Positions 1 through 61,437 of a DNA stretch of 64,000 nucleotides are shown in pieces. How positions within the stretch are numbered: position 1 is the stretch's first letter; the number at the start of each line of letters is the position of its first letter. The position numbers and the translations under genes were made by a program. Origin of the DNA: Dicyema japonicum (lineage: Eukaryota > Dicyemida > Rhombozoa > Dicyemidae); contig RDEW01000009.1 in NCBI GenBank assembly GCA_011109175.1, positions 1,229,652-1,293,651 on the forward strand. The letters run 5' to 3'. The notes beneath the pieces are model-generated. The model worked only from the letters and a program-made list of their open reading frames with translations. It was not told where the DNA came from and did no database searches.

Positions 1-32
1 GTCTTGGAAACCATTGTTTCAGTGAAATCCGA

Positions 33-505
33 GTGAAACCGTCCGAAATTGTGTTGAAGAACTTGCCATTTTGGGTTGATGATAACGACCTTCATGAATT
101 TGTCAAGGAAATAGCTTCCTCTACTACAAGCATATGTCGTTTCTACAAGGGAGAAAGACTCCCTCTTGCAAAAGTTCTAGTTGGATCAAGGGCGGAGGCT
201 ACATCGCTGGTCCGTCTTGGTTTCAACATTGCCACGTGCCGATTACATGTGAATGGTACAGGAGAGGCTCACCTAGGTGTTTCAAGTGCCAACGCTATAG
301 ACACATATCCTCCTTCTGTAAGGAGAAGACAAAATGTCTCCATTGTGCAGGGGAACACGACCTGACTGCTTGTGGAGAGACTCCTGCGAACACAATGAAT
401 TGCATAAATTGTGGCTCGTCCTCACATTGTGCCAGATATGGTGGATGCCCAGCCGCCAAGAAATCTGATCAGAGGAAGCAACTAAAAGCGATGGACAGGC
501 GATAA
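33..505 (+). pseudogene. LINE ORF1 (gag-like) with three zinc knuckles, frameshifted
   Basis: ORF1 proteins of Jockey-type LINEs bind the element RNA. The N-terminal half reads in one frame from position 33 (LVGSRAEATSLVRLGFNIAT, the conserved region before the knuckles). The C-terminal half reads in another frame with three consecutive CCHC-type fingers: CFKCQRYRHISSFC, CLHCAGEHDLTAC and CINCGSSSHCARYGGC. One frame change between about 260 and 285 separates the halves. This block arrangement is typical of Jockey/I-clade gag. The reading stops at 505, before the endonuclease. Confidence 0.85.
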
Positions 506-653
506 TAGGCGATATTGGGAGAACGTGGACAGCAAAGACAGTTACGTCAAAGTCGGCACCTAAAATTCGTCGAAAACTGAACGATGTCCCACCCAATCTA
601 TCAGAGAAGATATACACTGAAATATCGGAGATTATGTCACGGCTAAACTATCT

Positions 654-1671
654 GTGCTCGATTGCACATGTGGATTTAATGGAAACGGTGACTTTGGCTT
701 TGAAGAAGCAAGGTCACCCAAATGTTTGAAGCAAGGACTAAAAATAGTGCTATTGAATGCCCGATCTCTATGGAAAAGGCATAATGAACTAGCACTACTT
801 GCAAGGGCCTCCAAGATCGACATCTTGGTGGTCAATGAGACGATATTAAAGAAAGCGAAGAGTAATATAATGACTGGATACAATTCTGTGGACGTTTTAT
901 GGAAGGCTGGAGCAGTTGCTGTTACGAGCAACGTCTATTTTCAACCGGGACTGCCTCCGAATTCGTAATCCAATAGTCGTTTGTGATGTATTGTGTGAAT
1001 TTGTAAACATGGACGTTTGTTGCGACGGAGTATGGATTAGTGTTGGAGGTCTATACTCCAAGAATCTTGAGACTTGTTCTACAGATATCACTGAGTTCTA
1101 CAACAAGAATCCCTATACTATCTTAATTGGGGATCTTAATTCGAAGAACACTAGTTATGGTTGTAGCAAGACAAATCAGGATGGACGACGTTTAGAATTA
1201 TTGTCTGATTCATGTGGCTTTGTGATCCTTACGTCGGATGACCCAAATCATTTTTCTTATCATGGTGGCGACAAACTCGGCGTTTTCCTAGTATCGCCAG
1301 CTCTATCTGTGTATGTGGGAAAGCCAAAAACTCTATGGGATATCGGGAGTGACCATATTCCACAAGAATTAGTTATTACTTTGAGACCAGATGTTATGGA
1401 AGATGTCTTCTTGAAGTTCAACATATCTAACTTGGATTGGGGCCACTATAGGGTCTTCATATCCAATAATTTGTGTGTTCTACCGAGAGAGTTTTCAACC
1501 ATTGAAGGTATCAATGCTGTAAGTAGAGAATTAACAAATCTACTGCAGTCATATCTTCATCTGTATTCACGAAGAGTTTTCTCAAAAAAATCATTATTTT
1601 GTGTCGCCAATTATTATGAGGCTTATTCGGGAGAAGAATCGCCTAAGGGCAAAGCAAAGACGTTGTGCTGA
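654..1671 (+). pseudogene. LINE endonuclease domain (APE type), frameshifted
   Basis: The apurinic-like endonuclease nicks target DNA for target-primed reverse transcription. The start of the domain reads KIVLLNARSLWKRHNELA then IDILVVNET, the usual first strand and catalytic Glu region. After a frame change near 910 the central GDLNSKNTSYGC motif and the terminal SDHIPQ motif (catalytic Asp-His) follow. The catalytic residues look preserved although the frame is broken. The domain runs without a gap into the linker before the RT. Confidence 0.85.
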
Positions 1672-3196
1672 CAAAATAGACGGGGAATTCATATCAGCCA
1701 GAATCAGGATGATGAAGGAAGCAATCAGCAATATATGGAAGGAGGAGACTGACCGTATATGGAGGGCTGAGGCTGCAAAAATTGATATGAAGAATCCCTC
1801 TTTTTGGAAATGCTATCAGAAGATAATGTGTCCGAAGTCGGGTGCAGAAAAAATTATACTGGATAAACCAGACGGGGGAGTATGCATAACGGAGGAAACA
1901 CCTTCGATATTCAGGGATCAGCTCCAAAAAATTCAGGGTGTGGATCCGTGGAGTTTGATCCCTGATGACAAAAAGAAGGTGTCTGCCGATATATTTAAAC
2001 ACTCCGACGAGGAACTACCTATTGCTGATAGCACTGTCAGCATCTTTGAAGTGATGACAGCTATCAGGGAATGCAAGGTCAATGCTCCAGGATATGACCA
2101 CATATCAATGAAACTTATCAAAGAGGGTCCGGATATTTTGTTTGACTATCTGCGATGTCTTTATGATGGGTGTTTACGACTTGGCCACTTGCCTTTAATA
2201 TGGAAGAAAGCTGTTGTGAGGATGATTCCAAAACCAGGGAAGCCAAAGAGAGATCCGGCAAGCTACAGACCAATTAGCTTAATATGTTTTTTCGCGAAAG
2301 TGATTGAACGTATCATTTTCAAAAGGCTAAGCAGACATATAGAAGAGAATGACATTCTGATTCGGAACAGTGAGGTTATCGTCCCGGAAGAGGCTGTGCA
2401 GACTGTTTCTTTCTACTGAATTCTGAAATCATGAAAGCAAAGGATTCCAAGAGGCAAATAAACTTATTATGTCTTGATATCTCGAAAGCATTCGACTGGT
2501 ATGTCATGAAGCGTTGTTAAAGCAGCTTGTATCAGCATATGTTCCAAGATACCTATTTGTTTGGCTAGTAAATTATCTTTAGGAAAGACAATCTTTTGTG
2601 AAGGTGTGTGGAAATTTATCCGATGCAACATCATTCAAAAAAGGAGTACCACAAGGTTCAATATTGAGCCCTATTTTGTTTAATAGATTCATGGCGAGCT
2701 TTCCACGTCCGAAGAATATTAATACTAGTCTTCTTAATTATGCGGATGACGAAATCGTGGTGAACACATCTCTAAAATCTTCTATATCTGAAGGAAGAAT
2801 CCGGGAGTATGTTGACCAGATTGAGCATTGGTGCAACTTGAGAGGGCTAAATCTCTCTGCTGAAAAATCTTGCGCACTCTGAATAAGCAATGTGAAAAAG
2901 CACCTGAAACAAGAATACACACTGGGAGTAAACAATTCACACAGTCTGCGCTACCTGGGGGTCGACTATGGACACGCAGGAGATTACATGGACGACATAA
3001 ATGGAAGGAGAAAGAGAGCCTTTCAGTCGCTCCTATGTACACGGAAGTTGCACGTCACACTTACCTGTTTATCTTCAAGGGAGTTATTCTCCCTAGCCTA
3101 CTTTATGAGTGCGAGGGGTGGTTCTTCTCTCCGAAGAGGGACAAAATCTTATCCCTCCTAGAGAAGACTAGAAGAGTTCAACTAAGCTCTTCTTAA
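1601..3196 (+). pseudogene. LINE reverse transcriptase, broken in several frames
   Basis: This is the polymerase of copy A. Landmarks in order are WKKAVVRMIPKPGKPKRDPA and SYRPISLICFFAKVIERII (RT block 1-2, about 2200-2320), LLCLDISKAFDW (block 3, about 2466), GVPQGSILSPILFN (block 4, about 2643) and LLNYADDEIVV (block 5, catalytic YADD intact, about 2731). The C-terminal part with LRYLGVDYG follows near 2945. Frame changes or stops fall near 2395, 2505, 2580, 2880 and 3040, so no single product can be made. Confidence 0.9.
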
Positions 3197-3495
3197 ACAA
3201 GAAGCTGAAAGACTGTCTAAACGAGGACGAAAACAAACTCTTGGAACCGATTAGCAAGATTGTGGAGGATCGGATCAATGTTTCAGGAGGAGATCAAAGG
3301 TCCAGGACACATATATAAAGCTGGGAAAATAAAGATTAAAAAGCTGGGAGAAACGTTCCGAAAAAGATTAATAATAAAAAAAGGAGGAAGGGTCCAGGTG
3401 TGGAGTCCAAGCCTTATGGTATGACTCAGATGTAATACTCTCCAGAAATCTCCTTAACTCTTTTGTCAATAAATCGTTGTTGTTGCTGTTGTGGT

Positions 3496-3939
3496 AGCAT
3501 TACTTACTTAAAGTATTGAAAAAGAGTCACCAACTTTCTATCCCGTGAATGGAGTCACATCTTGTTCTTCTACCACGGGGAAGTCGAAGAAAATCTTGTA
3601 CCAGATTACTATTACTAAGCACTCTCGCTGTGCCATGGTCATGCACTAGATCCAGTAGTCCACCCGGATCCTCTCCCTCACTGGAGCGTATCCAAATCTT
3701 TTGGAAGTCCCCTCGGTCGTCCACAGAATCAGGATTCCCGACGATAGTCAAGGACTGCCAAAAAAGTCTTCCATGGCCATGTTAGTTAGGGTCCCCAGAT
3801 CAATTGAAATTTAATATATTTAAAACTAAAATATGATAATTTTGAATATAAAAATAAAATTAACTAAATATTTATATTTCAATCAACTTAAAAATAATAA
3901 AATATTTTGCTATAGTAACTCTAAACTCTCAAAGAAAAA
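3496..3939. other. Intergenic stretch between LINE copy A and the TRP gene
   Basis: The first 300 bases are moderately GC-rich and carry short overlapping open frames on both strands that I do not recognise. The remaining 150 bases are very AT-rich and lead into the TRP start codon at 3940. I see no domain, RNA gene or clear promoter motif. Confidence 0.4.
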
Positions 3940-6541
3940 TGGAGCGATTTACGATTAATGTTGAATCCGATGATAAGTTTCATTAATATTTAACATCAAG
4001 AAATTATCAGTCAAAAACGATAGAACAGGTCAGTGATGTCTATTCCATAGTGAAAAAATTTATTTATAAGAGAAGATTCAGCGATTCGAGTCTGATTCGG
4101 TCTTATTAAAGGCAAGCAAATATTTTCTGGAGTTTCCTCAAAGAAGGAGGAAGAAAATTTATATAAATTGATCAGTTACTTCGGCAGCTTCAACAAGTTC
4201 TTGTTATAAAGTAAAACAGGCTATCCCTGAGTCGAGATAAATTTCCTGATATTGATATCAATTTTATCGAATCAGCAATCGAAGCAGGTGCTGATGTGAA
4301 TGAGGTTGATGATTATGGGCAAACAATACTCCACGATGTAATCAATTTCACTTTAATCGTTGCTAGGCAGCCTGTAACTGGTCAACCGATGTTGTTATGT
4401 TTCTGCTAAAACATGGAGTCAATGTAAATGCCATGGACACCTTTGGCAGAACTCCTTTGCACGTGGCTGCCACCGCTGACTATCCAGAAATGGTTCATTT
4501 TCTTGTCGGAAATGGGGCTGACATGAACGCCTTGACTAAAAGAGAGATGCAGACTCCTGTCCATTACGCAGCCAAAAACGATTCCACAAAGTCACTGAAA
4601 GCTTTGATAAAATTGGGGGCAAACTACAAAACTGTGAAAGACTATAAGAAGAGGACTCCTCTGTTCCTGGCTGCAGAATTAGGTCCCCTTTCCAGTTATT
4701 GCTAGACCGAAGTGAGACAGCCACTGTCCTAATAGACAACGGAGCTCCGGTAGAGGAACGAGACTACTGCGGACAAACAGCCATCATTTGGATGGCGAAA
4801 AAAATGCCCAAAATAGTATTTTTAAAGCCAAACCATTTTAGGCTGTGGAAGCTCTCAATACACTCCACACAAAGGACAAACGAAAGCGTAAACAAGAGTA
4901 TCGTCTTGATTGCCTCGAAAATGTCAAAGGTATTTCTGACAATTTGGGGTCACATTTAGGATCTTTCATTGACTTCTCTCCACCGTCTCTGGTTTATATT
5001 AAGTTGAAAATTCATAGTTAGCTTAAGGCAATAGCTGACTCCGAAAATTATGATTTCTTTCAGTGTCCGATAGTCAGAAAATTCATCGACATTAAATGGC
5101 GGAAATTTGGATTGTAAGTTTGGTTTGCCACGTGCGTAGGTTGAATGCCTGGGTGAACCTGATAATCACTTTACTCTTCAACGTATTGTGGACTGTTATA
5201 TTTTTCCTACTTCCCAGCGGAAATGTCTACAAGTATGTCTACCCGAAGGATTACGGAATCACGTTTACCTGGGTTTGTTTATTTTTATTATGAAAAGGTA
5301 TTTGCCTTGTTTTTCTTGCTGCTGATTTGGATTGTGGAAATTCAGGACTACAGGATTTCCAAGGCTTACAACAGCGTTGTGTTGCCTAAAAATGTTAGAA
5401 ATGGGAATCTTGGAGGGAAATAGAAATTCGGAAAGACATGGAGTTTTGTCATCCTCGATACCCGGAAGAACAGACTTATTGGGATATTGAGTTACAGAAC
5501 ACCAAGGAAGAGAGTCCCTCGTACTTTTCGGACAAAAAGTTTGAGTTGATGCCAAATTCAAGGAATGTGGTGGACTGGGTTGTTTTTATACTATTGCTTG
5601 TCTGTTTTATTATCCACCTAATCGCCCTGGCGAAGGAAGATTCAAATCTTGGGTACAATCTTAAAAGGGTCTACTCATTCGCCCTTCTTATGGATGAGGT
5701 TCTTGATGTGTGCTAACTTTTTTGAAAGTCTTGGTAATTCATTTTACCCTTCATTGTGATTCTGTCTCACACCATCAATGACATTGTTCGCTTCCTTTTT
5801 ATTTACTTTATTTTTTTCATTCCATTCTGTAAAACGGTAATTTGACTCAAAGACTGCTGCTTCTGGGTATTCTATGGAGGTTCTACGGGCTTTCCGGTCG
5901 ACAGTCAGAGATTTTCCACAAATGTCACAAAAATTACAGTCCAAGGCTTTGACAGCGTAAGACAGGGAATATTCACACTTTTTCGGATCTCCATGGTTGA
6001 CGACTATGACTACACTGTTTGCCTGAGTGAATAATTCCCAGAATATGTCATCTATCGACCCAATAATGTCAGATATTTTGATTGGATGCTGGATTTTCGC
6101 TACGAGCATAATCTGCATTAACCTGCTGATTGCTCTGTTGTCTGACACTTTTCAGAGGTTTGCCAGTTGTTATTTCCAGAGTTTACGACAACGCCTTTTT
6201 CAACGCAATCATGCAGAGAACGAAGCTCATTTTGGCGGCTGAGGAGAGTTTCATATACAAAAACTGCGTTCACGGATGTTACAAATATATTATAAGACAT
6301 TGCAACCCTGTTGAGGAGTTTTTCGACGACGATGATATGACGGATCATGATCTTCAGAAGGTCACCTTTATTGTCAAGGTTGAGTGCGGTCTGTTAACCA
6401 ACGCAGGATAAAGTGGAAGAAATGTACGAATATATCCAAAATAAGAACGACGATAACCTTAAGCAAATCACTGATATGTTTAGTGAGATAAAAACGACTG
6501 TTACGAAGTTATCGGAAATATTTAAAATTAAGGATGGGTAA
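3940..6541 (+). CDS. Ankyrin-repeat TRP-family cation channel, 15 exons with 22-30 bp introns
   Basis: A cation channel of the TRP superfamily that would act in the plasma or ciliary membrane. The ATG at 3940 opens MERFTINVESDD. Ankyrin repeats follow (TILHDAACN, TPLHVAATADYPEMVHFLV, TPVHYAAKN, TPLFLAAEL), then the pre-S1 linker ending IDIKWRKFG, S1-S4, the pore helix GIFTLFRISMVDDYDY and S6 with ICINLLIALLSDTFQ. The tail is acidic and ends at the TAA of 6541. Fourteen GT-AG introns restore the frame at 3977-4000, 4090-4111, 4197-4219, 4338-4366, 4683-4706, 4816-4841, 4930-4959, 4992-5021, 5114-5139, 5273-5297, 5829-5852, 6017-6041, 6158-6179 and 6379-6406. Three single-base frame breaks remain: a GGG run near 5415, near 5681-5690, and a CCC run near 5747. 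They may be assembly errors. The subfamily (TRPA, TRPN or another ankyrin-TRP) is not certain. Confidence 0.88.
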
Positions 6542-13030: not shown

Positions 13031-13265
13031 AATTAACTCATACGGTCATTGTGACTGCTTTGACACTTCTCATAATGGATCCAACGGTACCATGAATGGA
13101 AGTACAATTGAGGACGATCGAGATGCAGTCCAAGAAGACCTAAGGAATTCAAAAATAAAGATCTACAATGTTGAGGACCTAGATGCTCTCCGAAAAATCC
13201 TCAAAAGGCCACGTGGTGCAGCTCAAACGACAGAATCTCCAAGTTGTGCTCAAAATAAAGGCTGA
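13031..13265 (+). CDS. Unrecognised reading frame ending inside the 118 bp tandem array
   Basis: From just after a TAA near 13031, an open frame runs NSYGHCDCFDTSHNGSNGT, then IEDDRDAVQEDLRNSKIKIY and NVEDLDALRKILKRPRGAAQ to a TGA at about 13265. No standard domain is visible. The C-terminal half is charged and helix-like (LDALRKIL, then a basic RPR), and the very end falls in the first copy of the tandem repeat. It could be the last exon of a larger gene whose upstream exons I could not join, or the 3' end of a mobile element. There is no function call. Confidence 0.35.
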
Positions 13266-13765
13266 GTCATAGAAACTGTGGTTATACAATCAGGACCTAG
13301 ATGCTCTCCGAAAAATCCTCAAAAGGCCACGTGGTGCAGCTCAAACGACAGAATCTCCAAGTTGTGCTCAAAATAAACGCTGAGTCATAGAAACTGTGGT
13401 TATACAATCAGGACCTAGATGCTCTCCGAAAAATCCTCAAAAGGCCACGTGGTGCAGCTCAAACGACAGAATCTCCAAGTTGTGCTCAAAATAAACGCTG
13501 AGTCATAGAAACTGTGGTTATACAATCAGGACCTAGATGCTCTCCGAAAAATCCTCAAAAGGCCACGTGGTGCAGCTCAAACGACAGAATCTCCAAGTTG
13601 TGCTCAAAATAAACGCTGAGTCATAGAAACTGTGGTTATACAATCAGGACCTAGATGCTCTCCGAAAAATCCTCAAAAGGCCACGTGGTGCAGCTCAAAC
13701 GACAGAATCTCCAAGTTGTGCTCAAAATAAACGCTGAGTCATAGAAACTGTGGTTATACAATCAG
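13175..13765 (+). repeat. Tandem array, 5 copies of a 118 bp unit
   Basis: GGACCTAGATGCTCTCCG recurs at 13175, 13293, 13411, 13529 and 13647, exactly 118 bp apart, and the array ends at about 13765. Copies 2-5 appear identical; copy 1 differs by AAAGGCTGAG versus AAACGCTGAG. Since 118 is not a multiple of three, the array cannot extend an open frame. Confidence 0.97.
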
Positions 13766-20029: not shown

Positions 20030-20778
20030 TTTGGTGTTATGCAGGGAATGTTCTGTTCCAGAGTATTCAAAGTTTCCAGAATTTGTTCTCTGTCACGTCC
20101 TCGTTTTTAACTATATCTCCATTATAGATAAAAGTGTCGCATTCAATTGTTTCTTCATCATCAGCCTCGGTTAATATTTCATTTATAGGTTCGGTCATTA
20201 TTTCATCAGTTAGGCAATCATCAATATTTAAAACATCACGAATTTTTTTCAATTTGTTTCCAACAATCTGTGACTGAAATTTCTGTTACTTCATTCCAAC
20301 TTTTTGAAACCAGCACTACAACCTGACGAAGGTTTAGTTTTGAAAGACGTTCTTTAAGATCACTTTCGATGTCCTGAAGACATAAAAATTCGATTAAAAA
20401 AGTAGAGTAATAGTTTTTGAATATATTTTATGATCCCCATATATAGGGTGTCGTATTTTTAGGCAAAAAAGAATTCGATATTGGAGCATTCAATAGTTTT
20501 CCTGCATTATCAAGTAATAATAATATTTTTCTTTGATGAGTAACCAATTTCTCATTTAGCTTGCATAACCAGCTTTTAAAAATGTTCCCAATCATCCATG
20601 CACTTTTGGAAGCTGAATATAAAACACCAAAATCTTCAATCGAAATTTTGCTCCGGTTTGGGGCTCCAGAAAAATTCCAAATTTGTAAATTAATGCTGGA
20701 AAATAGATTCCAAATGAAAACTGCCCAGAAAAGCGGGGGTGCCCCACCCGGGGTGTGCTCCGAAACGGGGTCGGACTG
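20030..20778 (-). pseudogene. Tigger/pogo-family DDE transposase relic
   Basis: The minus strand reads GAPNRSKISIEDFGVLYSAS, KSAWMIGNIFKSWLCKLNEK, RKILLLLDNAGKLLNAPISN, then FLPKNTTPYIWGS. The order AWM...F..WL, LLLDNA, FLPKNTT is diagnostic for Tigger/pogo DDE domains. The C-terminal text KLNLRQVVVLVSKSWNEVTE then SVTDCWKQI matches the AW..V...TI.NCF block. The 5' terminal repeat ends as ...GGGGTCGGACTG at 20778, followed by TA. Stop codons and the lost QPLD motif show it is dead. Confidence 0.85.
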
Positions 20779-21340
20779 TAGTTGGAATTGTATTCATGTT
20801 TATTGAATAGTTAAAAATCACTGTGCTTGCATCAATCGCAATAGGTCCAAGGTGTTTTAGTAAATACCAGTGATAGAATCAGGCCAACATGAGAGGGAAG
20901 AATTCATCCTCTTCAAACCCTCACTGACATCTGAAGTTAATCGGGTGGGTTCTATTCGGTCTTAATGAGGATAATAAGGCCCATCCATTTTCCTAATAAT
21001 TTTGTGGCTTATACTGGCGCAACATTTCATGAGCTTGGTAAGACTGTGCTGATCCGTCTGTTGTCTTTTAAAATTTCCTTTTGGGCCAAATTGTTTAATT
21101 TCTCTCCATATCGTCTGAGCGGATTTCTGAAATAAGGGAAGATCCATTAGTACCATTTGTTGGCTTCAGCTTTTCTCATCCTTTTTGATGCTTCGTTATT
21201 TAGAATCATTATATTGAATTTCGATAACTGGGATTAACAAAACAATAAACTAATTATTAAAATTCAATTTAAATAAAATAAAATTACCATTGTCAGAATT
21301 AATTAATATTCACACTGTGATCGAAAATTCCATCAATTAA
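20779..21340. other. Region between Tigger relic and IPMK
   Basis: A minus-strand frame at 21156-20962 (LPLFQKSAQTIWREIKQFGP) and an upstream piece (EASKRMRKAEANKWY) look like one decayed basic, possibly DNA-binding, protein that I do not recognise. About 150 AT-rich bases precede the IPMK ATG and could hold its promoter. Confidence 0.35.
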
Positions 21341-22248
21341 ATGGACCGATCCACCTGTAATGATGAAATGAATGTAGAAAATGTTGTTTATTCCTTATAT
21401 TTCAGAAGCAATTCAATATTTCCGAAGCCTCTTCTTTCATCAATCAGGTGGCTGGCCACACTGACGGAAAAGTCAAAGGTCCCCCATTCGATAATTTCAG
21501 ATTTTCTCAAATATGGGGACGACAAGCTCCTGAAGAGACTCAAGCCCGACAGAAGGGGAAAAGTCGAAGAGTCCTACTATAAAACCATCTCGAGTTCATC
21601 AGCGGACGAGTTCAACTCCCTATTTTACAAGTTCACCCCCACCTACTACTATACTCTCTTCAACCCTGAGTCTGCCAGCTGTATGGTTTATTTCTCACCG
21701 AGATTACCTCTGCCTCAAGGACGTCTCATCCATGTTTAAGAACCCTTCGTTGATCGACATCAAGATCGGTCATGTCACGTGGGAACCTGATTGTGTGGAC
21801 TCTTATAAAATCAACAAATTCCCTCATTCAAAGGAGATCAAGTTCAGAATCTGCGGAATGAAGGTTAGCTTAGGTTCCGGCCAGTATGAGGTCTACGGAA
21901 AAGAGTACGGAAGGAAGCTGAACCCCGATAGCACCTTGACAGGTAGCCATGCGGTATACCTTAGCCCTAAAACTGTTTTTTATTAACGGGAGTAGGTTTG
22001 TGAAGCCCATTATAAAGAAGCTAAGGGACCTACTGGATTTGTTTGAGAGGCAAAGAAACTGGCAGTACATTTCGAGCTCACTCTTGATTATATATGAGAA
22101 TTTTGAAGAGACTGAGGGACTTAATGATGAATTTGAGATTAAAATGATTGATTTTGCTCATGCATCGCCCACAAATAAATTGGACACGAATTATATTGAG
22201 GGACTCACATCGCTCATAGCATATTTAAATTCAATCAATTTTAATTAA
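21341..22248 (+). CDS. IPMK: Inositol polyphosphate multikinase-type kinase, 22 bp introns
   Basis: IPK-superfamily enzymes phosphorylate inositol phosphates (IP3 to IP4/IP5) in nucleus and cytoplasm. From ATG 21341 the protein has KRLKPDRRGKVEESYYKTIS, then, across a 22 bp intron at 21681-21702, YYLCLKDVSSMFKNPSLIDI. The family signature PSLIDIKIG (PxxxDxKxG) follows at about 21745. A second 22 bp intron (21943-21964) joins STLT to ALKLFFINGS. The SSLL motif (ISSSLLIIYE) lies at about 22070 and the metal-binding IDF motif (KMIDFAHAS) at about 22140. A 21 bp GT-AG segment at 21864-21884 stays in frame whether spliced or not. The product of about 285 residues is a compact single-domain kinase. 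I prefer IPMK over IP6K or IP3K because it lacks the long extensions, but the exact subfamily needs a tree. Confidence 0.87.
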
Positions 22249-26509: not shown

Positions 26510-27933
26510 ATGTGGAGTAAAGTTAAAAGTTGGTTCACGAATACACTCAAATGCTACAAAGAGAACATGTCGAGGATTTACTTGGATGAGAGAAAACGAA
26601 AATATTTGGTCCTTACGATTGTTTGTTTGGCCTTGTTTTTGGATAACATGCTGTATATGGTCGTTATTCCTATAATTCCGAACTACATTGAATCCTTCGA
26701 ACAAAAAGGACAAATTCTTAATTTCAATGAAACCACAAAACGAACTGTGATCCCTATTGATAGAACATCTTCTACTAGTTTGAAGACAGGGATCCTTTTC
26801 GCGTCCAAAGCCATAGTCCAACTAATCGTGAACCCCTTTCGGGGACATTAATTGACAAATATAGCTACACCATGCCTCTAATGTTTGGTCTGCTTGTCAT
26901 TTTTATTTCTACGACTATTTTTGCCTTTGGTCAATCATATGGAGTGCTTTTCCTTGCTAGATCTCTACAAGGAGTGGGCTCAGCCTTTGCAGACACGTCT
27001 TCTCTTTCAATGATTGCAGAGATCTACAAGGATCAAATTGAAAGAAGCAGAGCGATGGGGATAGCCATTGCTTGTATATCATTTGGGTCTCTTGTGGCTC
27101 CTCCGTTTGGTGGATTTATGTACGGACTTGCTGGAAAAGAAATTCCGTTCCTCGTGCTTTCCTTCATTTCACTGTTTGATGCCATTCTGTTGTACCCCTT
27201 CATATCAAATTCTCATCAGTTACAGAAAAGTCGGGATGAATCATTCCATTTCACTCCCATTTATAAATTGTTTCTTGACAAGTCGATTTTTATTTGTGCC
27301 GGTTGTCTTGTACTCGCCAACATCTCCTTGGCCTTTCTGGAGCCCACTATTTCCCTGTGGATGGAGAAAACTATGAGGACGACAGAATACGAGATAGGCT
27401 TGGTCTGGCTCCCAACATTCTTCCCCCACGTGTTCGGTGTTTATATGGCCTATAAATTGAACAAAAGTTATCCCGATAAGAATTGGCTCATTGCAATGAT
27501 TGGCTTAGTCATTGAGGGATTCTCGTGTCTAATTATTCCGTTTTCGACAGTCTATGCATCACTAATGTTTCCCCTAATGAGCCTGTGCTTTGGAATTGCA
27601 CTGGTGGATACAGCTATCCTCCCCCTGCTGGCCCAGATTGTTGATATCAAATATTCCAGCTTATACGGCTGCGTCTATGCCATTGCTGATATTTCCTATT
27701 CCATTGCCTACGCCCTCGGTCCGATTGTTGCTGGGGGAATTATGTCTTCAATTGGCTTCATGTGGCTCAACGTCTTCATTTTCTTATCCAATGTTTTATA
27801 CGCTCCTGTAATGTACTTCCTTACATCCACACATAAATATCACTCCCTCAATGAAACCGAGGTGGATATTATGAGATGTGACCTCGAAACTCCAGCTTTC
27901 AGAAGTCAGTCAATCGAAAATGACGACTTATAA
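26510..27933 (+). CDS. SLC18A3: Vesicular acetylcholine transporter (SLC18A3/UNC-17 type)
   Basis: VAChT loads acetylcholine into vesicles by exchange for luminal protons; it is a 12-TM major facilitator protein. From ATG 26510, TM1 reads LALFLDNMLYMVVIPIIPNY with the conserved Asp, and TM2 reads FASKAIVQLIVNPF with the conserved Lys. VAChT-type rather than VMAT-type blocks follow: LARSLQGVGSAFADTSSLSM, ERSRAMGIAIACISFGSLVA, FLEPTISLWMEKTM, LVWLPTFFPHVFGVY, LCFGIALVDTAILPLLAQIV and YAIADISYSIAYALGPIVAG. The Asp residues of TM10 and TM11 are kept. No intron is needed. One base is missing relative to a continuous frame at the GGGG run near 26841-26844 (between NPF and the LIDKYS loop). The C-tail is short (about 30 residues). 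The family is certain; the transported substrate is inferred from the VAChT-specific blocks. Confidence 0.93.
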
Positions 27934-28654
27934 TCAAAATCTAATCACTAACGGCTTTTTTAATAATTTATGTTGTTTTATGATCAATAAACTTTATAAA
28001 CAAGACTATCAAGACAAACTACTTTATCACGTGTCTTCGCTTCCCCCTAGCCAAGATTTTGTTCACCTCTTTACTATTATTTTCTACTATTGTAAGGTGC
28101 ATAGAAGCATGGCGTACATTAGGAGACACGTTCTCAATGGTTCTCTTTAAGATAGTTGCTTGTAATAGATATTTCTACTCCCAATTCGTTTGCGGGGAGA
28201 ACGTATTTCCGTTCTTCTCCACCTCCACTGTTTGCAAACGTTCTTGGTAAGTGATGCCACTTTTACTTTTACTCTCCATACGACCAATCATAGACCTAGG
28301 CTGTACAGCCAGTCTATGGTCCCCCACCTAATGTGGACATGATTCTCCCTCAACACTTGACAGATACTCAGCACCACCAATTTGGTAATTAATTCTTATA
28401 GTGCTGGCATTCATGTAATCATCCTATACTCACTCTGGTTGTCTGCTTTAGGAATCAGGTACGTGATCACAGTTTATAACCATTGGGGAATAATACTTGG
28501 ATTAGCTACATAATCGCTCAAATATTACTCAGATTGCCACTTTTGATAAAGAAATTAAATATTTTATCAACTTCCGGGTTTTCCAGTTCGACAGCTTGCC
28601 GGTGGCACTTGTCATCGGACTGTGAATCCCAGCACTGCCACATAATTCAGTCAT
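27934..28654. other. 3' flank of VAChT, no second gene
   Basis: An AATAAA at about 27985 could be the VAChT polyadenylation signal. Short frames to 28250 are not recognisable. Near 28565-28640 a GC-richer scrap (PGFPVRQLAGGTCHRT in one frame) resembles LINE ends but is too short to assign. Confidence 0.4.
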
Positions 28655-30004: not shown

Positions 30005-30467
30005 TTAACTATGGAGAGCGGCTGCTGACATCACAAGAAAGCGTTTTCGCGGACAACTGCGATACCAGTTCTTTGCCTCAGCCAGACCGCTTCCCGCACG
30101 TCTTTCTTGCGGTGGGCCAATTTTCCCCCGATTTCCTTTAGGAAAGAGGCTGTAATACTTCCGGCCGCACCAGAAGTCTCGATTGATACCGGTACAAAAC
30201 GGTGGCAGTCTCCAATTTCGACATATTTTTTAATCTGATTTTCTCGGCCAGATCGGCTGCCGATCCAGCAAACTGCGCCGAGCTAAGTATCATCGAGTTC
30301 GAGAAAGAATCCACAACAGTGCAGTCCCATACAAGCGATTTTCCCTCAATGAACGGAAGGATAGTTAACCCATCCGGTCTTTTCCCATCTCCGCGGTCCA
30401 ATCCTACAAGCTCCAGTACTGCCAGGAAGCCTGCCGCTTCAAGAGCTCGCATGACAATGTTGTTCAT
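30005..30467 (-). pseudogene. LINE restriction-like endonuclease domain and C-terminus
   Basis: The minus strand reads AAGFLAVLELVGLDRGDGKR, PDGLTILPFIEGKSLVWDCT (PDG and WDCT forming the nuclease core), AGSAADLAEKIRLKNMSKLE, then, after a frame change, FVPVSIETSGAAGSITASFL and an end VRENAFLVMSAAALHS. This is the best preserved of at least seven copies of this domain or its end in the window, and served as the reference for the others. Confidence 0.8.
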
Positions 30468-31825
30468 ACCAGCGTGGCGGGGTGCTCTTCCCGCACTCCT
30501 TTTGCATGAGAGCGGATGGAGCCCTTTGGAATCGACGATCCCTCCACAACGACATTGGTGTTCGACGCAAACATCAACTCCCAGGTGTTGTGCGATCCCA
30601 ATCCGAATGCAGTCATCGTCAAAAAGGGTCCCCAGGGAGGAACACTAGAGTGCATCCAGCCACGCTCTGCTCCCATGGTTAGCGGCGAACACGAGGCATG
30701 CAAGACGATGCTGGTTGGCCTCAGACTTTAGCACGTCGAAGAATTCTGGAGAGTAGATATTATCCCAGTCACGTTGCCTCGAAAGATAGTTCGGCATTTT
30801 TAAACCAGTTTCACACCATTCGCGACGAGCTTCGTCTCAGACTCTTTCCCAAGAAAGTCCGGTTGTAAACGTAGGATTTCTCGGACCAAAAGGCTTCCAC
30901 TTGAAAGCGATGACACATATGCTGGATAGGCGATCTCCAGCGCCGACCGGAGGCCCTTTCCTCCGAGACGTGTAGGAAACTTGCATCGGTTCCAACTCAG
31001 CACATCAAAGTGGATGTTCAGAAGCAATTCAGCTGATTTTCTCAATGTCCTATCCAGTGACAGGAGGATGTCACGATGTTTGAAGCAGGAAGAAAATCGG
31101 AGAGCATATAGGAGTTTGGACAAGCCGATGCTCGGACAGACAATGCTGCATGCGATTTTCGCAGTAAGTCTTCTGAAATAGTTGCCGACCGCGATGGGGC
31201 GGACCTCACCTTCAGGTTTTTGAAGGCCAGTAGATATGCACTAAAAGGAAGCTCCTTGCGTGGGGAGGTATATCTCCGCTCCAAAATACGCATAACCAGT
31301 TTTGTAATTGATTTGACAAGGTTGCAGCCAGCTTCTGCAGTAGCCTCCGCCGTAAGATCCTTTGATGTGACCCGGCCGCAAGCCATCGATACCTCCACTG
31401 CTACTCGCCGCAAACGACGAAATGCCGTGTCGCACTTCGCCTTCGGTGACGGTCATTCTTGTCAAATTTCCCAGAAGCACGAATGGGCGGTAATCTTCCG
31501 GAGCACATGGATGTTTATGTCTGAGTAGTTCCAGTACCTCAGGTGTCGCAGCCATAATAGTTTCGTCGCCTTCGAATAGTTTGCGGTTCACTCTCTATTT
31601 AAGTTTCTCCGGGCCATTCAAATAAACCGGAAGGTTGGAATCAGAATGTCTTGATTTCTTGACTTCCGTCTTGGTGAGAGAAAGCACATAGAAAACCTGG
31701 ATGCTCTTCTTCATTTTTCAAGAAAGGAAGTTCTCAAGTGTCGTGCCTTTCCTCTGTATTCCGTTGATCTCTTTTTGAGTCGATAAATGGAATTCCAAGG
31801 GACATCGGAGCAAAACTGAGGAGTT

Positions 31826-35877: not shown

Positions 35878-37482
35878 TTAATTGGTTAAATCATTATAAG
35901 CAAAAGTAGATCTGAACTTTTCCAAAAATAATGAAATTGCCAAATAAGACATGTTCACGGTTTCGTGCATAAAGAAATACAAGTAACTGAATACTAGAAG
36001 ACTCACTACTGCATTAATGAGAAATACATAGTTTTTCATATTCTGGGCTCATCACAACAACAAAACCTTTAAAAATCCCAAAGGAAGAATGGAAATTAAA
36101 CTAAATAGATTCTGAATGATGTGTCCCAGCGACAGAGCAGCTGGTCTGGCGTCTTGGATGAAATATTCGATGGATATAACTTGACAAACACAACCGAAAG
36201 ATAATCCGAAGCTTGCAAAAAAGATTATGAAACAAATGTCACTCAACCAATAAACTTTGAAGGCGAATGAGACCACTATTAATAATTGGGAGATCGTTAA
36301 TGGTATAATAGGCCACATCAGGATTTTCTTTCGACCGATAATGTCGATTAGAACATCTATAGCAAATTGTAGCCAAATAAACTCACTCCGACTGTCGTAA
36401 AGACTATATGTACTGATGTATATACCAGAATTATTACAGTATAGTGCAGAGAGCCAAGAATTGAGGAGAATAAAAGTTTCGGAAAGGAGATAAGCTTGAA
36501 AGTGATAAACATCTTACCAAAGTAATTCCTGTCATTTGGTAGCCAATGTGGCAAATTAACACAGTCGTCAGTGGAAATCTCAGTTTTTTACTTCGAACAA
36601 GATCGATAATGTTCAGAGGGCGACCAATGTGTTTATTCTCCTTGTCCATTTCATCGATTTCAGACTGAATTTCATAACTTCCTCTCAATTTCAATAGAGC
36701 TAGAAACTCAAGATATTGTGCTACATAGTCTGGCCTTCTCTCGGTTCTTAGCAACGAAAAATAAAAATCGGGGACTTTCTGGAAAAAATGGAAGGACGAT
36801 CAAGGAGATGACCGATAAGATTCCTGGAAGACTGAAAATATATTTCCAGTATTTTCCCAAATGATCTAACTGGAGACATAAAATTACCTAGGATTTTATC
36901 AATGGTTATTATTTCAGCGAATAAAATTCCAAGTGGAACTCCCAAAAATTGGTAGATGACCGCTTTTGCACGGAATTCATCAACACTAATTTCAGATATG
37001 TACATAGCCACGAAGGGTACTAACATTCCTGAAATTATGCAAATTGTATACCGAAAGAAATGCCATACGTAAACCCTCCAATAAAAAGAAATGTATAGAT
37101 ATCAAACTTTAGTGACGATATTTGGAAGATCGAAGACAAAAACAGGATTCCCGAACTTATCAAGAGACTGTTTTTAGGTCCACATTTGTTTACGGGAAAA
37201 GTAGATATTCCGGAACCAATAATTCCCCCAATTATGTACTGGGTTTGCAGCAGTAAAAATTCTGTCCATTCACTAGTAGTCACTGCTTTTGTCTCAAATT
37301 CGTTCCAAATTTTCTAAATTTGTTGAAATCAGTAAAACTAACTTTTTGGAGATTGTTGATGATCCCAAATTCGTATCCTTGCGCGAAAGAAATGAGAGAG
37401 ACTGTAAAAAAGATTACAAAATATATTGGAGTGATGCGCTTTAAATAACTGCATATTTGTCTATAATTTGTCGAACACTCAT
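35878..37482 (-). CDS. SLC2/GLUT-type facilitative sugar transporter, 22-29 bp introns
   Basis: A 12-TM major facilitator of the glucose-transporter family, expected in the plasma membrane. Reading from about 37482, exon text RITPIYFVIFFTVSLISFAQ and GYEFGIINNLQK is TM1. Introns at 37314-37342 (29 bp), 37029-37051 (23), 36866-36887 (22), 36495-36517 (23), 36357-36382 (26) and 36043-36066 (24) join GIIGSGISTFPVNKCGPKNS, ISFGMLVPFVAMYISEISVD, ILDHLGKYWKYIFSLPGI, LPFFPESPRFLFF (PESPR kept), GYQMTGITL, VNVLIDIIGRKKI and QDARPAALSLGHIIQ. The stop is at 35878. The first exon is uncertain: an ATG at 37482 needs one more intron before RITPIYF. RxGRR is reduced to NKCGPK, QLS is changed and PETKG reads HETVN, so substrate specificity is open. 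Confidence 0.86.
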
Positions 37483-41603: not shown

Positions 41604-42388
41604 TTAACTATCCACTACTCCGTCACTTAACCAGATCCCCACAAATAACTGGTATACAAATGTGCCAAAAATGGCCCCGAGTGGTAGAGAAAATAATGGA
41701 ATAATGCAGTACGGAAATCGCCAAGTTATAGAATTATTGAATCCCATGATAGATGCTGTTATTCTTCCCGTAAGATCCAAATTTAGATGAATTGTGGTGG
41801 ATCCTGAAGCGTTAAATGTACTGTAAACACCAGTTACTAACAATCCGAACATTAAAGGATGCAATTTTTTTCCATGCAGTTTAGTTTTTTGTCAATTATT
41901 GTTAACAATCCAACCATGACTGAACTGATTGCGAGGAATTGTTCCAAAAACGCTAGAATTATATTATTATTCGGAAAAGTCGTAAAAATGTGGATATTAT
42001 GTACATTCAAGTTAGAGATATCACCACGGGATTGACTAAGAGAAATTCATTATTGCAAAGTCCATAAATGACGAAACAACTTGTAAAACTGGCAGGAAAT
42101 GAACCAAGACAAAAGAAGGTAGTTTCTTCCATTTTACACGTCCAATAATGCACAGTGAAAGAGTAACTGCTGAATTCATTTGTCCTCCTCCAACAGAATT
42201 GGAAATATAAAACCCCAACATGACTCCAATTCCGATGCTCAGATTTTGGGCAAGGTAGTTTTCAGTTTTTATACGACTCGCTATAGCCGCCTGTTTGAAG
42301 ACAAGGAATACAACTGTCCCCAGATATTCCCCAAATTATCACGTCCAATAATATTAACAAATTTCTTTACCCTTCTTTTAAAATTCAT
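41604..42388 (-). CDS. Aquaporin/aquaglyceroporin-like gene with three single-base frame breaks
   Basis: MIP-family channels move water or glycerol. From an ATG at 42388 the pieces line up with aquaglyceroporins: VNIIGRDN then FGEYLGTVVFLVFKQAAIAS (TM1), YISNSVGGGQMNSAVTLSLC (loop B; first NPA is NSA), SSFMDFAIMNFS, ISNLNVHNIHIFTTFPNNNI (FATYP-like), FLAISSVMVGLLTIIDKKLN, MFGLLVTGVYSTFNASGS, LNLDLTGR (second NPA is NLD) and GAIFGTFVYQLFVGIW (TM6). Frames change at a T3/A3 run (42333-42335), near 42034-42043 and at a 7-base run (41865-41871). Each is a one-base change; two are at homopolymers. Either sequence errors in a real gene or a young pseudogene. Both NPA motifs are altered, which would be unorthodox for a working channel. 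Confidence 0.72.
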
Positions 42389-49339: not shown

Positions 49340-50038
49340 GTAAAACCGGTTTTACTGTACAACTCTTCTACTGGGCACTCACAATGCCTGAAATGGAAAG
49401 TCTGAACTCCTTTCATAGAATGCAGCTCAGATACATTCTAAGAAGAATTTCCTGACCAAAGCACACCTCAAACAAATACCTCTATTCCCATTACAACATC
49501 CACCCATTGGACGGAGAAATAAGAAGTAACAGATGGGGCTTATTTGGTCACATCTTAAGAATGGACAGGAATACTCCCGCTAATCTCGCGAAGGAACACC
49601 ACTATGCTCCTCATCCGGGATCAACTTTCCGGAGAAGACCACGAATTACTCTACCAACCCTTCTACATCAAGACCTAACTTCGAATGGAAAAGGGTTGAC
49701 GTTGGCAGATGATCTTGAGCACCTGAGGGACCAATCGAGGAACAGAGGGAACTGGAAACGATTAACCGAAACCGAAAACACTTAATTCAAACAGGAATTA
49801 GTTTAAGGGAGTCCGCCAATGCGGCCTGGACACTTCCGATTCAGCCCATCTCCATATTAATCTCGTCTAGCGTCGGATCCCATGAATCTCTAAACGCCCT
49901 TATATCCAGAACGTAGTAGGTACAAAGCAAATAAGCCTATCTCCAGTTAGTTCTCCCTAGTAGGTCCCCTCCCCAGTATGTTCTTCCACGTAGTCCCAAG
50001 CCGCCTTGTAGGTACCAATGATGTGATTAATAAAGTCT
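49340..50038 (+). pseudogene. RTE-like LINE 3' end
   Basis: FHRMQLRYILRRIS, then SNRWGLFGHILRMDRNTPAN and RRRPRITLPTLLHQDLTSNG, and a C-terminal Arg/Asn-rich tail ending at 49785. The 3' UTR ends in GTGATTAATAAAG at about 50036. The same protein region occurs at 24780-25072 on the minus strand. Confidence 0.78.
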
Positions 50039-50089
50039 TGTGTAGCACCCAATTCGAATGTAGGGAACAATTGGTGTGGAATCAGGGAT

Positions 50090-50215
50090 CTTTAGTAAAT
50101 TTTCCACATGGCTGACGACCTCCTTCAATCTAGAAAATCAGAAACATCTCTACCGAGGGACTTTCGGATAATTATTTATCGTTTGCGTTCTGAATACGAA
50201 CTACCACAAGTTATT
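50090..50215 (+). mobile_element. Truncated Merlin copy
   Basis: About 105 bp nearly identical to 48000-48105, from the start codon region through RDFRIIIYRLRSEYELP. It is cut off where a minus-strand LINE begins. In this copy the N-terminal frame is intact where the longer copy has a stop. Confidence 0.8.
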
Positions 50216-51270
50216 CAATGCTGAAAAGTCGGTCGAAGTAGACCTATCCTTTCTATAAACATGTTGAAATGACAAGTCCGGGAAGAAATTTTTGATTTTC
50301 GCAAGAACCAGCCTTTCCAGAATTTTCGACATCGAACACAATAACGCGACCGGTCTGTATGAAGCTGAGTCCTTCTTCACTTTTCGGGTTTCAAAATATC
50401 CCCTGGTGTAGTTGAAGTGGTGTTTAGGTACAGATAGTGATCTCGCATCCAAGATAGTGTGGTTTACATAAGCGACTACTTTGTCCATGGAAGTAATGCA
50501 TCCAGGTACTGCAGTAGGTTGTCAGGAAGTGTACAGTAAAGTCTCCAGTCTGCGCGTTTGTAGTTGAATTGTTCTGGGGACCTCCTCCTATTTGATTCGT
50601 TTGTTTTCTTCTGTTGAGCAGATGGATTGCAGTGAACATTTTTGATGAGTATTTGAACTGTTCAACTTCTGTAGCTCTTAGATCAAGTAGGTTAGTGGCG
50701 TACTTATTCAAAATCTTTATAGTTTTCTGGGTGGATCTTCTAGACTTCAAGATTTGTTTCCTGTCCGGATCATACGTATTTTCCAGTTGTAATCTTAGTT
50801 CCTTTGTTCTTTAATGAGGGCGGGGACATCTGGATGTATATATTTTTAAACAGTGCTGGGACCAGGTTCCGATACTCCATTTGCTGCCGAAAGGATCCCT
50901 TTCATTGTCTCCGCCCAGGTGCTTCCCGGAGGAAGTCCGGGATCCAGGTTTCAAAAGAATTTTGTAATTGATATTTGGTAGTTGTCTCTGATCGATGTAG
51001 AGTAACACAGTTGTTCCATTTTATAGCTTCTTCTTACATCTACGTTTGGCTCTCTTCTTGTTAGGTCAGTCAAAGTCCTCGTTGTGAACTTGGCATAGAC
51101 TATCTCGTGATCACTGTCGATAGCTGCATATCCGTAAGACCTCGAGTCGCGTAGGAGTGATTTTCTTTGACTCGGCAGATGATGTAGTCAATTTGGTTGA
51201 AAATGTTAATAGAGCCTTCGGAAAGGTAAGAATCGTTGCCTGTCCATGTCGTTTTCAAGAGAAGCACGTG
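50201..51270 (-). pseudogene. Jockey-like LINE, endonuclease end to RT start
   Basis: The minus strand from about 51255 reads TWTGNDSYLSEGSINIFNQI, DYIICRVKENHSYATRG and SDHEIVYAKFTTRTLTDLTR (terminal SDH motif), then the linker, then RT text SASYRPVALLCSMSKILERL and LSFQHVYRKDRSTSTDFSAL ending at 50201. It is 3' truncated against the Merlin scrap. Confidence 0.78.
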
Positions 51271-59815: not shown

Positions 59816-60051
59816 CTATACCATTTCAGGTTTAAAGTGGGTCTTACCAAAAGCAAAGTGGGTCTTACCAAAAGCAAAGTGGGTCTTACCAAAAGCAAAG
59901 TGGTACTTACCAAAAGCAAAGTGGTACTTACCAAAAGCAAAGTGGTACTTACCAAAAGCAAAGTGGAACTTACCAAAAGCAAAGTGGAACAAAAATTATT
60001 TAATAAACCATGTCATCATTATTTAACACCGATGGGGCCAACCTCTGAATT

Positions 60052-61097: not shown

Positions 61098-61225
61098 TTT
61101 GCTTAGTCACTTTTGCAATTGATCTCGACACTTTTGCAAATGATCTCGTCACTTTTGCAATTGATCTCGACACTTTTGCATTTTGCTTTGTCACTTTTGC
61201 GATTGATCTCGACACTTTTGCAATT
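61098..61225. repeat. Second tandem array inside the Tc1-like element
   Basis: About six units of 20-21 bp, CACTTTTGCAATTGATCTCG with variants, lie between the transposase start and the right terminal array. No matching array exists at the left end. Confidence 0.9.
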
Positions 61226-61437
61226 GAAATTAATCTTCATCCTATAACAAAAAAAATAATTTTTGTTCCACTTTGATTTTGGTAAGTACCACTTTGATTT
61301 TTGGTAAGTACCACTTTGCTTTTGGTAAGTACCACTTTGCTTTTGGTAAGTTCCACTTTGCTTTTGGTAAGATCCACTTTGCTTTTGGTAAGACCCACTT
61401 TGCTTTTGGTAAGACCCACTTTAAACCTGAAATGGTA

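Follow-up and report, generated by a model that had tools for sequence, protein, structure and literature searches.

An intronless gene on the + strand of the window (the whole stretch of DNA analyzed, 64,000 nucleotides) is, as judged by homology, the dicyemid ortholog of the vesicular acetylcholine transporter (VAChT). The protein joins a known family, and its interest comes from its setting in an animal described as nerveless. Genes assigned by homology to choline acetyltransferase (ChAT), the choline transporter CHT1, acetylcholinesterase (AChE) and nicotinic receptors co-occur with it in the genome. Probably, then, VAChT works as one step of a neuron-free cholinergic module in the dicyemid, with transport, vesicles, cell type and target all presumed.

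Compared with solved structures, the 3′ piece of the gene scored 379 bits with VAChT (PDB 9kkn; E 2.2e-112 for the PDB VAChT chain), 256 with VMAT1, 246 with VMAT2 and 40 with SLC18B1. The aligned part of 9kkn is identical to 8zmr, the human protein of PMC11369146. A large protein search returned 1306 proteins at E ≤ 0.001, of which 120 were listed. The closest public protein of these 120, here P0001, is deposited as 'vesicular acetylcholine transporter unc-17-like [Octopus sinensis]' and lies on a 1.03-Mb contig.

For the phylogeny, 24 proteins were chosen from the 120 listed; owing to the pattern used to cut the sequences, four of them were absent from the first (24-row) tree and eight from the second, and none was lost from the 28-row tree. 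In the 28-row tree, VAChT and VMAT were split with 100/100 support, the VAChT clade itself had 100/100, and the window gene and P0001 were sisters, also with 100/100. Forcing this pair to join the VMATs was rejected (p-AU 0.017 in the 28-row tree, 0.007 in the second tree). Identity as VMAT or SLC18B1 is ruled out by the bit scores and the tree, and the VAChT assignment of an earlier note on this DNA, made from the letters alone, withstood this phylogenetic check. The pair joined a group of eight made up of the three named annelids and five unnamed proteins (90/81) and a similar group in the 24-row tree (92/81). Since its stem is long, the spiralian placement of the pair is only modestly supported.

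Gene structure and the frame break

The gene maps to C181:1256161-1257584 of 1618314, and the VAChT reading is split over two frames (Table 1). The first begins with an ATG at 26510 and ends in a stop codon at 26849-26851; the second is open from 26779 to a TAA at 27931-27933. As assembled, 26510-27933 is therefore not a single open reading frame. VAChT coding in this span, as described in the earlier note, was borne out on the + strand; the one break in the frame had been overlooked. The blocks quoted there (SAFADTS, FLEPTISLWM, WLPTFFPHVFGVY and YAIADISYSIAYALGPIVAG) and the acidic membrane residues were all found on the + strand where they had been placed. Among Pfam domains, MFS_1 was found in the 3′ piece, and the 5′ piece had no match.

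Table 1. Features of the VAChT gene and other features of the window (window coordinates)
Feature	Position	Strand	Remarks
VAChT 5′ open frame	26510..26851	+	N-terminus, TM1 with LFLDNMLYMVVIPIIPNY, luminal loop, start of TM2, then in-frame stop
VAChT 3′ open frame	26779..27933	+	Remaining protein to TAA; homology from about 26830
Break from the first VAChT frame to the second	26830..26848	+	Conserved stretch, short homopolymer runs, no intron
AATAAA, possible polyadenylation signal	27986..27991	+	52 bases past VAChT stop codon; string search
Ankyrin-repeat protein, then ion-transport domain	4236-6538	+	Perhaps a TRP-type channel
Inositol polyphosphate kinase gene	21341-22236	+	Closest recognized neighbor upstream of VAChT
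Sugar transporter	35932-37435	-	Own gene model
Probable aquaporin	41610-42332	-	Own gene model
118-bp tandem unit	13174-13765		Five copies, 99% matching
21-bp tandem array	59834-59987		Would encode GLTKSKV-type or related heptapeptide repeats
21-bp tandem array	61108-61227		As above
21-bp tandem array	61268-61422		As above
Mobile-element-like stretch	18-3811		Resembles reverse-transcriptase-type element (by eye)
Mobile-element-like stretch	20428-20793		As above; DDE_1 endonuclease match
Mobile-element-like stretch	30037-31591		Resembles reverse-transcriptase-type element (by eye)
Mobile-element-like stretch	49960-50950		As above

Residues 1-109 of P0001 align with the first frame at 53% identity and residues 98-450 with the second at 78%, and no P0001 residue is lost between the two. 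Since P0001 aligns across both frames with nothing missing, the break is a small frame discontinuity in conserved coding sequence, and an intron spanning it is ruled out. An intronless VAChT is common to many animals. Origin as a retrocopy with flanking direct repeats was rejected, only short and imperfect repeats being found around the gene.

A sole break in an otherwise sound gene suggests an error of assembly or in a homopolymer, or else a very recent allele, rather than an old pseudogene. Homopolymer runs are a frequent site of long-read assembly errors. The break could also be real and fixed, VAChT then being a recent pseudogene and vesicular acetylcholine loading having just been lost in this species. 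It does sit within the coding region, and the two other long conserved exons inspected, a 556-residue esterase frame and a 324-residue innexin exon, have no break, so the assembly is not obviously indel-rich. However, a second stop or frame change is absent over about 470 codons, the acetylcholine-binding residues are intact, the partners ChAT, CHT1-like and AChE are retained, and the break adjoins short homopolymer runs, in general typical spots of long-read error. Recent loss of function is therefore considered unlikely.

Partner genes and proposed neuron-free cholinergic signaling

The ChAT, CHT1-like, acyltransferase and innexin models were obtained ab initio with our own codon and GT-AG path search, and their ends and some junctions may be wrong; introns of only 18-90 bp were allowed, with about 35 bp favored, which bounds the intron lengths. 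In the whole genome, carnitine/choline acyltransferases gave 21 Carn_acyltransf matches at four loci. The model at C148:1366443-1368294 of 1773037 scored 311 bits with ChAT, 277 with carnitine acetyltransferase and 147 with CPT2, and its top-scoring named homologs were ChATs. It carries the triplet V-E-N, and among 120 listed homologs the place is taken by V-D/E-x in 102 and by T-D/E-T in 14, with four unmatched by the pattern; the remaining three acyltransferase loci carry a TET/TDT triplet. No ChAT exon was found in the window, as the earlier note had remarked, and none of the 21 genome matches lies on the VAChT contig.

The SSF family gave five matches at four loci. Against solved structures, two of these loci scored 204 and 120 bits with CHT1 (26 and 22 with SGLT1), and the model of a third, on C110, is a near copy of that of the 204-bit locus, which points to three CHT1-like genes in the genome. 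The models at C135:197646-198020 and C110:270983-272320 are near-identical, and C113 carries a divergent copy, which suggests a multiplied choline transporter family. Thus, both genes for which a genome search had been proposed, ChAT and the high-affinity choline transporter, have candidates in the assembly.

Carboxylesterase gave one genome match, the 556-residue single frame mentioned above, with 450 bits to acetylcholinesterase. The Cys-loop ligand domain gave 20 matches at 11 loci, and a YxCC-type loop C was found on the gene's strand in eight of the nine loci inspected, a count made with a short six-frame pattern that yielded two other hits as well, in loci L014 and L018. A Munc13-type MUN domain gave one match of 32.7 bits, weak though above the cut-off.

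Dicyemids are tiny kidney parasites of octopuses and squids and are described as having no nerve cells. In the mechanism proposed, choline would enter through CHT1 and be converted to acetylcholine by ChAT, secretory vesicles would be acidified by the V-ATPase, and VAChT, whose activity is predicted from its sequence, would trade protons of the vesicle lumen for acetylcholine from the cytosol, to be discharged by exocytosis. Since dicyemids are described as lacking neurons, the source would be secretory cells of the epithelium or the larva and the targets neighboring cells in the same animal, where nicotinic-type channels would respond, and hydrolysis by acetylcholinesterase would end the signal. 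The non-neuronal cholinergic reading advanced earlier is supported and widened by the putative ChAT, CHT1-like and AChE genes and the 11 Cys-loop loci.

The same module could export acetylcholine outward, into the renal sac of the cephalopod, to act on host epithelium or nerves, and dicyemids do mainly inhabit cephalopod renal organs (PMC12953835). Secretion toward the host is nevertheless improbable, given that the animal's own nicotinic-type receptors and acetylcholinesterase suit signaling within the animal and that no finding points outward.

Other transmitter genes were sought by six-frame searches of this one assembly, of ungauged completeness. VAChT and VMAT2 queries each matched the present VAChT gene only, and no separate VMAT was found in the genome. 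Biopterin-dependent hydroxylases gave no genome match in a search that was positive in only one of 14 control genomes, and neither did the GAD/AADC/HDC decarboxylase family, for which the search was positive in 8 of 14. Staining of infusoriform larvae for dopamine, GABA and dopamine beta hydroxylase, as well as serotonin-like immunostaining in dicyemids, is reported in PMC6854800, where Lu et al. 2019 also give 'chemical synaptic transmission' as over-represented in infusoriform larvae.

The chances are about even that dicyemids keep a whole, neuron-free cholinergic system as their exclusive classical small transmitter with dedicated synthesis, VMAT and the enzymes of monoamine and GABA synthesis being gone. 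If so, a synapse-like module outlived the nervous system and was taken over by cells of the epithelium or the larva; the larval dopamine and GABA immunostaining must then have another origin.

VAChT is the customary marker of cholinergic neurons, and a reduced animal, described as nerveless, that has a cholinergic kit and in which no enzyme of monoamine or GABA synthesis was found would uncouple the transmitter module from the neuron. The question of a lost or hidden neuromuscular system in dicyemids is now tied to five named genes.

Acetylcholine contacts and substrate

In human VAChT, acetylcholine is contacted by Asn47, Tyr50, Met51, Ile221, Ser225, Asn302, Leu305, Ile394, Asp398, Tyr428 and Tyr432 (PMC11369146). 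All 11 contacts are retained in the dicyemid protein: I221, S225, N302, L305, I394, D398, Y428 and Y432 (8 of 11) were placed by alignment, and N47, Y50 and M51 (3 of 11) by the spacing of the TM1 motif, without the human TM1 letters alongside. Asp193, Glu309, His338, Cys391 and Asp425 are likewise retained. Y50, M51, S225 and H338, named in PMC11369146 as the four positions separating VAChT from VMAT, are all of the VAChT type. Position 225 is Ser in the window, P0001 and human, and Cys in Octopus bimaculoides, Capitella and Apis, while conservative changes are found at 197, 214 (gate) and 218, which are L, M and I.

The earlier note had also considered that the protein may have changed substrate. 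The fold would then have been kept with another cargo, such as choline or a polyamine. The dicyemid pair does sit on a long stem (about 1.1 changes per column), which would be in line with this, but with the full set of acetylcholine contacts and H338 retained, and with ChAT and CHT1-like genes present in the genome, a changed substrate is very unlikely.

Origin of the sequence and comparison with known systems

The assembly comprises 64.67 Mb in 191 contigs, the VAChT contig being 1.6 Mb long, and the window has a GC content of about 36% (mean of 32 rows); genome size and GC resemble those reported for D. japonicum, 67.5 Mb and 36.7% (PMC6736024). An innexin on another contig is 77% identical over 100% of its length to Dicyema koshidai innexin1 (691 bits), the second-best of 12 matches scoring 317 bits. 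In six gene models, introns had a median of 25 bp and 32 of 45 were under 30 bp, within the 18-90 bp allowed by the search; PMC6543705 gives medians of 27 bp for Dicyema sp. and 57 bp for an orthonectid. The innexin, together with the short introns, identifies the source as a dicyemid, a point that the earlier note had left conditional. A search for COX1 gave no match in the assembly and was positive in 8 of 14 control genomes. Innexins gave 28 matches at about 15 loci, several of them long single exons, a large gap-junction set for a few-celled animal.

The window protein is 77.7% identical to P0001 and 54.5% to O. bimaculoides VAChT, and P0001 and O. bimaculoides VAChT share 51.8%. In the 28-row tree, grouping P0001 with O. 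bimaculoides was rejected (p-AU 3e-5), and so was grouping it with five molluscs (p-AU 9e-5); in the second tree, the window with O. bimaculoides was rejected as well (p-AU 1.7e-5). Groupings that kept the pair together stayed above the 5% level, at p-AU 0.064 (28-row) and 0.073 (second tree) for the window, P0001 and O. bimaculoides, and at 0.088 for the window, P0001 and the five molluscs (28-row tree).

Contamination by cephalopod host DNA, against which the earlier note had cautioned, or a gene acquired from the host would fit the octopus label of the top listed match and the deep mollusc groupings, which are disfavored without being rejected, but is ruled out for practical purposes by the identities, by the rejection of O. 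bimaculoides as partner of either protein, by the best tree, which sets the pair beside the group with three annelids, and by the 1.6-Mb contig, in an assembly whose innexin is of the dicyemid type.

The comparisons suggest instead that P0001 is very probably dicyemid contamination under an Octopus sinensis label. The sequenced D. japonicum came from this octopus as host (PMC6736024). Two further proteins with the same label, P0243 and P0244, on contigs of 399 and 371 kb, are 53% and 48% identical to the dicyemid innexin, a resemblance by similarity alone. The public octopus assembly probably carries dicyemid contigs, with these three genes on them. No dicyemid ChAT under an octopus label was found among the names of 120 of 152 matches.

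P0001 resembles the window protein in its N-terminus and its short C-terminus as well as in overall identity, whereas it is deposited as one intact frame and its octopus label is at odds with the tree. With VMAT1 and VMAT2 (SLC18A1/A2), the dicyemid protein belongs to one subfamily and shares the equivalent of D398, but identity is 38%, and in VMAT1 positions 225 and 338 are L and Y, while 428 and 432 are both F. With SLC18A3 (PDB 9kkn, 8zmr, 8xtw), it shares the MFS fold, as predicted from sequence, and the acetylcholine contacts together with the four VAChT-against-VMAT positions, and the two are 54.5% identical where compared. It differs from SLC18A3 in length, with about 470 codons here and 455 in P0001 compared with 500-660 in the majority of the 120 listed proteins, which extend from 448 to 662, and in having one frame break as assembled and a position outside ChAT.

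In the cholinergic gene locus, VAChT is nested in ChAT, whereas the dicyemid VAChT lies neither inside nor beside it. Since VAChT (C181) and ChAT (C148) are unlinked, on separate contigs and each hundreds of kb from the nearer contig end, the nested locus is absent.

A literature search that left most subscription papers and bioRxiv preprints outside its scope found no pairing of dicyemids with a vesicular acetylcholine transporter and, for choline acetyltransferase, just a nemertean brain paper. The nearest precedent is Zverkov et al. 2019 on Dicyema sp. (PMC6543705), with eight nicotinic-like receptors and a hypothetical scheme of vesicular acetylcholine release. Nicotinic-like receptors and neuron-free vesicular release are common to that scheme (Fig. 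9 legend) and to the one proposed here; unlike the present analysis, its main text names no choline, ChAT, SLC18, CHT or transporter and, in its six acetylcholine passages, no esterase, and candidate genes for these steps are identified here.
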